DNA from: Streptomyces cucumeris
GTDB taxonomy: Bacteria; Actinomycetota; Actinomycetes; Streptomycetales; Streptomycetaceae
Length of the DNA stretch: 64,000 nucleotides
Direction of reading: 5' to 3'
Assembly: GCF_024295805.1 (NCBI RefSeq)
Contig: NZ_JANCLX010000027.1
Coordinates: forward strand, 34,573 to 98,572
Below the pieces are notes generated by a model. That model had not been told where the DNA came from and did no database searches. It saw only the letters and a list, made by a program, of their open reading frames with translations. A program made the translations under genes and the position numbers. This document shows positions 24,538 through 26,807 of the stretch, piece by piece. Positions within the stretch are counted from its first letter, which is position 1, and the number at the start of each line of letters is the position of its first letter.

Positions 24538-24789
24538 ATGAACGCACGCATGAAGCAGAGGCAGTGCCCGGACTGCGGATCGACCGAGGTCTTCCCCATC
24601 GACCTCCACCGGAACCAGGGGGGAGCGATCTGGGTCATGCTCTGGGACACCTACGGGCGCAAGCGCATCGATCTCACCACACTCGCCTGTGCCGACTGCG
24701 GATTGATACGCCAGTACGCGGCCGACGACGCGAAGAGCCGCAATCACCTGGCACGGGCCCTGATCCGCCCCTCGGACGACCCCCGCTGA
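24538..24789 (+). CDS. Small zinc-ribbon protein
   Basis: An 83-aa protein with two CxxC pairs: CPDCGSTE near residue 10 and CADCGLIRQY near residue 51. These should bind one zinc ion as a ribbon. The middle has GAIWVMLWDTYGRKRIDL. A GAGGAG site sits directly before the ATG at 24538, so the spacing is very short; the ATG at 24550 is an alternative start. No partner is evident; it could bind nucleic acid or protein. Confidence 0.6.
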   Translation: MNARMKQRQCPDCGSTEVFPIDLHRNQGGAIWVMLWDTYGRKRIDLTTLACADCGLIRQYAADDAKSRNHLARALIRPSDDPR

Positions 24790-25430: not shown

Positions 25431-26807
25431 CTACCCTCGCCCGGCGCGGGGCGCCACCCCCAGCCCCTTCAGCCGTTCGAAGTCGGCCGCGTCGATCTGT
25501 TCCAGAACCTTCAACTGGCGTTCCAGTGACTTGAGCTGGCGGCCGCTGTCCTCGTGGCGCCTGAGGGCGTCCGCGGTCGTGACGTGGAAGCGGGCGAGCG
25601 CGACCTTGAGGCTGCGGCTCTCCAGGATCATCCGGTAGATGGTCTCCTCCGCCAGGGCGTCCCGGACGGACCGGACCGGGCGGGTGAAGAACAGGGTGAC
25701 GATCTGCCCCGCTCCCAGGGTTCCGATGATCGCGGGGGTCTGCCAGGTGACCCGGCCCGGCCACACGACCTGGACCACCGACAGCGCGAGCGCGATCAGC
25801 AGCAGAGCCGCGCCCAGGCCCAGCAGGAACGTACTGGCGAACCGGACCGTGCGCTGCGCCCGCCGGAGCCGTTCCGAGGTCTGGATGCGGTAGTCGCGCA
25901 GCCGGGCGTCCTCGTAGGAGAGGATGCCCTCCTTGTCCTGGATATAGGAGGCGTAGCCGGTGAACTCGGCCTCCCCGCCCCTGGTCAGGCGGCGGTCGTC
26001 ATCGGGCCGGGAGCCGAGGAAACGGGCGAGCTCCGCCAGCCCGGTCATCACCTCGGCGCGCAGCACCCGTTCGCAGAAGTCCAGCGCCGACAGGTGCCGC
26101 TCCAGCGTGCGGCTCGCGGTGAGGGCGTCGGAGACGACGAGCTGGCGGACGTTGTAGCGCGAGCGGATACCGGTCAGCAGTAATTGGATCTTGATGTCGG
26201 TGAGCACACCGAGCACCACGACATGAGTCGTCTCCTCCCGGCCGTCCGCCAGCAGGCCGTCCAGCAGCGTCGCCAGGCGTGACGGCTGACGGGGCTCGGG
26301 GCGTCCGCCGGAGCTGTGCTGGAAGTCGAACAGCGTGTTGGACGTCAGGTGGTGGACGCGCAGCCTGCCGCCCCAGCCGTCCTCGCGAGGCGGCGGATCC
26401 AGCAACTCCGCGAGGCCGTCGACGTACTCGGCGCCCCAGGTGTTCGCCTCGCAGTGTGCGCCGTACTGCCTGCGTTCGAGATCGTACGCCTCACCCGGTA
26501 CGTGCCAGTCGCGGATGTTGATCAGATGGAGCACTCCGTCCCCGTGGCCGCGGGTCCGGGAGCCGACCGTGGCCTGGAGGAAGCGGGCGAGCGGGGAGTG
26601 GTGGATCTGCCCGGCGGACAGGACCCTGCGGTGTCCCTCCGTCCGGAAGCCGGTCCCGTTCTCGCTGTCCAGCAGCAGCTTGGACGCGGCGCTCTCCGGC
26701 AGACACAACTGGCAGTCCAGGTTCAGGAAGAGGTCGTTCTGCAGACACTGCGTGATCAATATGTACTGCGGTGCGCTCTCGCCCGGGCGTTGTGCGCGCG
26801 GTTCCAT
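25431..26807 (-). CDS. Degenerate isochorismatase-like protein with a two-TM C-terminal module
   Basis: A 458-aa protein. Residues about 14-265 resemble the isochorismatase/nicotinamidase (cysteine hydrolase) fold: YILITQCLQNDLF, VLHLINIRDWH, and VVVLGVLTDIKIQLLLTGIRSR. By alignment to family patterns the usual catalytic Asp falls at C21, the Cys at K206, and the Lys is missing, so the site looks inactive or reshaped. After a charged linker come two membrane segments (about 333-355 and 363-383) and a long basic helical tail. The codon for L209 is TTA (26181-26183), so translation should need the bldA tRNA. A GAGGGGGG site precedes the ATG at 26805-26807. A signalling or conflict role is possible but unproven. 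Confidence 0.6.
   Translation of the reverse strand: MEPRAQRPGESAPQYILITQCLQNDLFLNLDCQLCLPESAASKLLLDSENGTGFRTEGHRRVLSAGQIHHSPLARFLQATVGSRTRGHGDGVLHLINIRDWHVPGEAYDLERRQYGAHCEANTWGAEYVDGLAELLDPPPREDGWGGRLRVHHLTSNTLFDFQHSSGGRPEPRQPSRLATLLDGLLADGREETTHVVVLGVLTDIKIQLLLTGIRSRYNVRQLVVSDALTASRTLERHLSALDFCERVLRAEVMTGLAELARFLGSRPDDDRRLTRGGEAEFTGYASYIQDKEGILSYEDARLRDYRIQTSERLRRAQRTVRFASTFLLGLGAALLLIALALSVVQVVWPGRVTWQTPAIIGTLGAGQIVTLFFTRPVRSVRDALAEETIYRMILESRSLKVALARFHVTTADALRRHEDSGRQLKSLERQLKVLEQIDAADFERLKGLGVAPRAGRG

Follow-up and report, generated by a model that had tools for sequence, protein, structure and literature searches.

The window analysed here, a 64,000-nucleotide stretch of the Streptomyces cucumeris genome (assembly of 9.5 Mb in 98 contigs, 99.73% complete), encodes a nicotinamidase-like protein in which the catalytic residues appear to have been rearranged rather than lost, and which is probably fused to a two-helix membrane hairpin. 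The fold is known, as is the NAD-linked type of locus; the family-wide exchange of catalytic residues and the membrane fusion are apparently new, at least to us, and no description of a swapped-site nicotinamidase-like membrane protein was found in the titles and abstract openings of the open-licence papers searched. We tentatively favour, with a probability of about 0.45, a role as a membrane-anchored cytosolic sensor of nicotinamide or another NAD metabolite that would control the membrane module. If this is correct, an enzyme of vitamin salvage has been turned in bacteria into a sensor of NAD+ breakdown, which is an important signal in bacterial immunity and in toxin-antitoxin biology. The sensor would then serve at least two outputs, namely the membrane module and a module with kinase-like and phosphatase parts. 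The conserved rearrangement of catalytic residues would in that case be the mark of a new activity or a new binding function instead of decay.

The N-terminal domain

An isochorismatase-like fold had been proposed in an earlier, sequence-only reading of this DNA, and structure comparison agrees. The AF2 model of the full protein, built from 57 sequences, has a mean pLDDT of 75 and consists of an alpha/beta domain (residues 14-267) followed by long helices; 17 of 26 ten-residue blocks of the N-domain score above 80, and residues 27-60 are modelled with poor confidence. In VIA, the domain matches 3hb7 with a Z of 19.4 (rmsd 2.4 over 181 residues) and B. subtilis PncA with a Z of 18.5, and the best Foldseek match is the nicotinamidase 3s2s (E 1.9e-7). 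The matches in VIA also include 1nf8 and 1nf9, which we take to be structures of PhzD, so that the fold is shared with PhzD-type isochorismatases. When the family profile was compared with solved structures, 3hb7 was found at 2.4e-12 and 13 chains in total at E<=1; five more chains below 1e-3 are nicotinamidase/pyrazinamidase, cysteine hydrolase or isochorismatase by name. The modelled alpha/beta fold thus places the protein in the isochorismatase superfamily. The Pfam family PF00857 matches it with 16 bits, below the cut-off of 27, and the gene is missing from the genome-wide PF00857 list, which holds 11 other places at E<=0.001. Three of ten relatives scanned (L036, L057 and L062) exceed the same cut-off. 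Most homologues share the position of the start codon in the alignment. The features of the gene are collected in Table 1.

Table 1. Coordinates in the window of the gene and of the parts of its product
Feature	Residues	Position	Strand	Basis or remark
Whole gene, nicotinamidase-like domain plus two-TM helical module	458 aa	25431..26807	minus	ATG at 26807
Nicotinamidase/isochorismatase-fold domain	~14-267	26007..26768	minus	AF2, Foldseek, VIA
Cys21, at catalytic Asp position	21	26745..26747	minus	alignments; one earlier alignment differs by one residue
D100-W101-H102, matching PncA metal ligands Asp52/His54	100-102	26502..26510	minus	profile alignment
His118, matching PncA metal ligand His71	118	26454..26456	minus	profile alignment
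Ser156, at catalytic Lys position	156	26340..26342	minus	S/A/T/C in 50/50 family rows
Lys206, at catalytic Cys position	206	26190..26192	minus	K in 50/50 family rows
TM1 (predicted)	327-345	25773..25829	minus	mean KD 2.72, AF2 helix
TM2 (predicted), marginal hydropathy	357-375	25683..25739	minus	mean KD 1.34, AF2 helix
Conserved helices after TM2 (MILESRSLKVALARFH, then LERQLKVLEQID)	376-448	25464..25682	minus	alignment, AF2

The active site

According to PMC3025910, PncA of P. horikoshii uses Asp10, Lys94 and Cys133 as its catalytic triad, and Asp52, His54 and His71 hold its metal. A profile alignment with this enzyme sets C133 against K206, D52 and H54 against D100 and H102, and H71 against H118. 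For comparison we used 37 further genes of the superfamily, of which 8 come from the window's genome and 29 are the nearest standalone matches in its phylum. Opposite C21, 34 of these genes have Asp, whereas all 50 family rows have Cys; opposite S156, 36 have Lys; and opposite K206, 31 have Cys and none has Lys, the remaining residues being three G and one each of M, S and I (the I stems from the broken frame L126). The alignment upholds the earlier placement of the triad on C21, a missing Lys and K206, with Ser156 now assigned to the Lys position. An alignment with 22 canonical rows set the Asp opposite Q20 by way of a one-residue gap, and Q20 and C21 are both non-acidic. The columns of D100, H102 and H118 hold D, H and H in 48, 49 and 50 of the 50 family rows, respectively, and in 29, 29 and 29 of the 37 other superfamily genes. 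Judged from these alignments, the swapped-site family keeps the metal ligand residues of nicotinamidase, and exchanges the catalytic Asp-Lys-Cys for Cys-Ser/Ala-Lys in a fixed and reciprocal manner.

Cys21 and Lys206 are present together in all 57 aligned family members. Twenty columns of the family alignment are invariant, in blocks 17-25, 118-125, 161, 200-206 and 238-242 plus P37, where the conservation of columns 18-25 is partly forced by the peptide used for searching, ITQCLQND. H118, C119, D161, T203 and H238 do not vary in the family, and D100 and H102 nearly so. The resemblance to PncA thus covers the fold, the D-x-H ... H metal ligands and the positions of Thr203 and His238; the differences lie in the Cys-Ser/Ala-Lys arrangement, the membrane fusion and the Pfam score. 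With an invariant Cys and Lys throughout a family that spans several phyla, and with the metal ligands retained, the pocket gives the impression of having been rebuilt and not given up. The domain had been called dead; all three catalytic residues are indeed replaced, but mere loss is not supported for a site with these constraints, and the status of a dead enzyme is not shown.

A Cys, a Lys and a metal could indeed remain catalytic, and new chemistry of this kind is the main rival to the sensor reading, albeit an unlikely one. C21, which lies where strand 1 ends, or a metal-bound water would act as nucleophile and K206 as general base or Schiff-base former, on an NAD-derived substrate at the membrane. 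The invariance of C21, K206, H118, D161, T203 and H238 speaks for such an enzyme, fixed reactive side chains being typical of catalysis, and the superfamily offers a precedent in PhzD, which stays active in the absence of the catalytic Cys. PhzD, however, retains the Asp and the Lys, while the present family loses all three triad residues, with neither an acidic residue in place of the Asp nor a Lys at 156, and strict fixation would also fit ligand binding. We know of no enzyme with a Cys-Ser/Ala-Lys arrangement. The same two residues might alternatively form a redox sensor, in which a reversible C21-K206 bridge of the NOS type or a metal-thiolate switch would report oxidation to the membrane module. 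The fold leads one to expect the invariant Cys and Lys in one pocket, and C119 is invariant too, but no recurrent redox genes were seen by eye among the neighbours, and we consider this reading very improbable.

The nicotinamidase relative L119, a standalone gene from the same phylum as the window, shows yet another altered triad, distinct from the swap: the Asp is replaced by Asn and the Cys by Ser, with the Lys kept.

The membrane module

Fusion to two membrane helices, as also noted from the sequence before, is probable: TM1 is clear, whereas TM2 is marginal, and even a buried strand region of the N-domain has a higher hydropathy (1.91 against 1.34). In the AF2 model, helices span residues 283-348, 356-374, 376-416 and 421-448. 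M393, L395, S399, L400, A403, L404, A405, R406, H408, T410 and T411, in the stretch that follows TM2, are invariant in 15 rows. The putative hairpin is flanked by basic sequence, with 8 K+R and 3 D+E before it, 4 and 3 after it, and 1 and 0 in the loop; basic flanks on both sides suggest that the N-domain is cytosolic.

A likeness of the two-TM part to the membrane modules of conflict proteins, previously suggested, did not find support. Two TM helices with flanking helices are a feature of the target and of SLATT proteins, the latter predicted to answer nucleotide/ADPr signals according to PMC7159879 and PMC9503650. No sequence or profile relation to SLATT_1 was detected, however: NF033634 matched the target with an E of 0.41 (10.6 bits, cut-off 41), and hhalign of the two-TM region with shallow profiles (Neff 2.3) gave 2.2% to Streptomyces SLATT_1, the sole SLATT family compared, and 1.5% to one CyanoTRADDas_TM protein. 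CyanoTRADDas_TM (PF20712) was not listed in the Pfam scan of the target at E 10, PADLOC had no family matching at E 10, and the membrane part matched no known family in these searches. A fold search with the module returned nothing under E 0.4, the model of the isolated module being weak (pLDDT 66). An origin of the two-TM part in SLATT, CyanoTRADDas or a known fold was accordingly set aside, as sequence, profile and fold searches gave no match; a distant link to SLATT or CyanoTRADDas may nevertheless exist, given how shallow the compared profiles are.

These results bear on the proposal that the protein is a pore gated by an NAD or nucleotide signal, or a membrane-killing conflict effector, with the N-domain as receptor and the two-TM module as toxin. 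The design would be the same as that of the predicted SLATT effectors of PMC7159879 and PMC9503650, and genes for SIR2_2, patatin, a kinase, a Clp-like AAA+ protein and RES occur near relatives. The missing homology to SLATT_1 and CyanoTRADDas_TM and the missing PADLOC match count against it, as do the maintenance of the window copy as a lone gene and the failure to find any relative in phage, plasmid or viral contig sets, which also led us to reject spread by phage, plasmid or virus. We judge an effector of this kind to be distinctly unlikely. No open-licence paper was found that joins isochorismatase with SLATT or with ternary conflict systems, and the words 'isochorismatase' and 'TCAD' are both absent from the available text of the eLife 2020 paper on conflict systems.

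Family distribution and architectures

A scan of the species-genome collection with the peptide pattern ITQCLQND gave 65 relatives. Fifteen match over nearly the full length (12 from Streptomyces, one from Streptosporangiaceae and two from Anaerolineales), and 50 match over the N-domain only. Hosts of this soluble type include Spirochaetes, Bacteroidetes, Proteobacteria, Planctomycetes, Chloroflexi, Verrucomicrobia, Acidobacteria, Elusimicrobia and others. The family thus has two architectures, a membrane type and a soluble type with TCAD9 and often a phosphatase. TCAD9 (PF19974, kinase-like), which is named once each in PMC10910872 and PMC11195610, was found in all seven large soluble-type relatives scanned. 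A DSP-type phosphatase is above the Pfam cut-off in L036, L030 and L039 and weak in L062, which is cut by a contig end, and tblastn places a phosphatase fused or nearby at 42 of the 50 soluble-type loci. The TCAD9 and DSP-phosphatase proteins share the N-domain and the residue swap with the target, and differ in that kinase-like TCAD9, often with the phosphatase, replaces the two-TM module and in that they lie on a separate branch.

Because the search peptide biases residue 21, retrieval was repeated with a profile (E 1e-15). This gave members in 1 of 301 genomes of one phylum (centre G780, Anaerolineales) and in 23 of 198 genomes of a second (centre G787, Spirochaetaceae). All 24 scored below 1e-95 and all have the Cys and the Lys, including the variants MTQCLQND and ITQCLQRD; at least three of them were already in the peptide scan (L156, L161 and L170). 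Among 396 genomes of its own phylum, the window gene (3.1e-69) was the only strong match, the next being at 9.2e-15, and the top weaker matches used from those genomes are short canonical relatives.

The first alignment covered 62 of the 65 loci plus the query, with L020, L066 and L067 left out for broken or mis-started frames; alignment A1 covered 56 loci plus the query and alignment A5 49 loci plus the window. In a tree that carried warnings about long branches and an unsettled bootstrap, the family is split by a 100/100 branch from 22 canonical rows, which were chosen by a pattern requiring the Cys, and the membrane type forms one group (99/98). Within Streptomyces, the target gene occurs in 9 of 392 genomes, counting the window's genome and one remnant.

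Gene neighbourhoods

In the Streptomyces loci L009-L020, the target ends a gene block. Directly upstream, ~15-69 bases apart, lie geneA and geneB in 12 of 12 loci; as with other lipoprotein, secreted and membrane labels of neighbours, their classes were assigned by eye. GeneA encodes a lipoprotein with a vWA-like DGSGS motif and no meaningful Pfam match, and geneB a membrane protein of 508 aa. A further gene, gene0, is present in all 12 loci (partial in L013), a radical-SAM/Fer4_12 gene in 11 and a Macro-domain gene in 10 (partial in L017), and where radical-SAM or Macro genes are missing, at a few loci, this is because their positions fall beyond short contig ends. All eight Macro proteins scanned match at E<0.01, two of them above the cut-off. 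A Ser/Thr kinase gene of opposite orientation, which was scanned in L010 and L019, follows beyond the Macro block. Conservation of the cluster is largely among close relatives; the sole more distant locus is L019 (S. inusitatus), where the block is kept at 62-71% identity and is visible only up to the kinase.

In six close genomes (G165, the source of the queries, and five others), the cluster continues with Clp-like AAA+, FHA-like, RES and weakly CHAT-like genes, the FHA-like label being given by eye and the CHAT-like one resting on an E of 0.0077. The RES gene, about 12.6 kb upstream of the target with strand switches in between, was identified through annotated homologues: its product is 38-42% identical to the products of plasmid genes annotated 'RES domain-containing' or 'RES family NAD+ phosphorylase', and phmmer against solved structures gave no match. 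The chemistry of RES NAD+ phosphorylases is treated in PMC11535050. In G165 (L184:3729-15739), the CHAT-like (weak), RES, FHA-like, Clp-like AAA+ and Ser/Thr kinase genes lie upstream of the Macro/radical SAM/vWA-like block, in what looks like an undescribed NAD-linked conflict-type locus.

Elsewhere in the membrane type, two SIR2_2 genes and a C39-like peptidase gene adjoin the target in L022 and a patatin gene adjoins it in L023; by eye, no NAD gene is among the neighbours of L021 and L023. A link of the family to conflict-type loci, for which analysis of homologue neighbourhoods had been proposed, thus comes from the gene neighbours of relatives, e.g. SIR2_2 and the RES cluster, instead of from homology of the two-TM part.

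Among soluble-type members, NAD-related genes were found in the fetched flanks of 8 of 50 loci (6 strong, 2 weak), a raw count without a random-gene control. Band_7 was counted seven times at these loci, an NADK-like gene seven times, NAMPT four times and NrtR four times. Six of the eight carry NAMPT, NAPRTase, NAD synthase or NrtR, and in L043 and L067 the context is a Band_7 and an NADK-like gene only. Pfam support for the NADK-like gene is weak (17.3 bits vs 25.5 in one case, no match in the other tested), and some of the NAD-related genes lie kilobases off and in opposite orientation. None of the NAD genes searched was found at the other 42 soluble-type loci, nor were those sought at soluble-type loci found at the 15 membrane-type loci. 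The row at L057:234-9623 comprises NUDIX, NrtR, NadD-like, PncA-like, NAPRTase, NAD synthase, Band_7 and a gene that resembles the weak NAD-kinase matches, and ends in a RAMA-DSP phosphatase and the swapped-site/TCAD9 protein. Some neighbours thus point to an NAD context of the family in three settings, namely these soluble-type loci, L022 with its SIR2_2 genes and the Streptomyces Macro/RES cluster.

Two gene arrangements recur beside TCAD9-type genes. A pair of Band_7/SPFH and divergent NAD-kinase-like genes is near the TCAD9-type gene in L033, L035, L043, L053, L057, L067 and L071. Upstream of it in L053 (4962-7951) and L063 (5132-7989), both from Bacteroidota, is a trio of J-domain-like, vWA-like (both labels by eye) and adenylosuccinate-synthetase-like genes, the last label coming from Pfam in L063.

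A model for function

Genes that cleave or make NAD lie near relatives in the three settings, which makes sensing of NAD+ breakdown the most economical reading and lends support to the ligand sensor already named as a plausible role. A pocket that keeps the metal ligands and loses the cutting residues is expected to bind a ligand but not to carry out the usual acyl-enzyme amidase reaction, and the N-domain would accordingly hold a nicotinamide-like or other NAD-derived ligand and leave it uncleaved by that route. The ligand signal may travel along the long helix to the two-TM hairpin and to the C-terminal helices, which would then change the state of the membrane or of a partner. The Streptomyces block would supply a Macro protein, of the ADP-ribose-binding class, and the RES NAD+ phosphorylase from further upstream. 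A narrower version, which we regard as doubtful, makes the domain a receptor devoted to free nicotinamide, or to a close product of NAD+ breakdown, that arose from a nicotinamidase through the swap of Cys and Lys; its membrane form would answer NAD+ destruction by RES or SIR2 proteins, and the Macro protein would read the ADP-ribose half.

The window copy

The genes near the target in the window encode a small secreted protein, a zinc-ribbon protein, an AraC regulator and what looks by eye like a membrane protein. None of geneA, geneB, gene0, Macro and radical SAM was found within the window, and geneB was not found in the genome. The gene is nevertheless under purifying selection, with a dN/dS of 0.19-0.28 vs the six nearest homologues; values against farther homologues are 0.38 (L019) and 0.55 (L021, near saturation), and two cluster-borne copies give 0.19 between them. 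This purifying selection on the window gene, together with the fixation of the replacing Cys and Lys, led us to reject simple decay of an enzyme.

GeneB is otherwise a close companion of the target, present in 7 of 7 Streptomyces genomes with the full-length gene (the window's excluded), in 0 of 12 without it and in 0 of 1 with a remnant. This pattern is what would be expected if the domain were a ligand-free pseudoenzyme scaffold, conserved for its fold and for contacts with partners such as geneB. A scaffold would not need fixed pocket residues across some twelve phyla (by record titles), though, and the low dN/dS of the window copy in a genome that lacks geneB suggests that the protein is useful on its own. 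We give pure scaffolding very little credence and, together with membrane toxicity and redox sensing, rank it as less supported than the sensor and new-catalysis readings.

The genome with the remnant (L082, G297) has it beside a transposase-like gene, recognized by eye. In the window itself, the zinc-ribbon-like protein encoded near the target (24538-24789) is small, with 83 aa, and matches Zn_Ribbon_TF only weakly.
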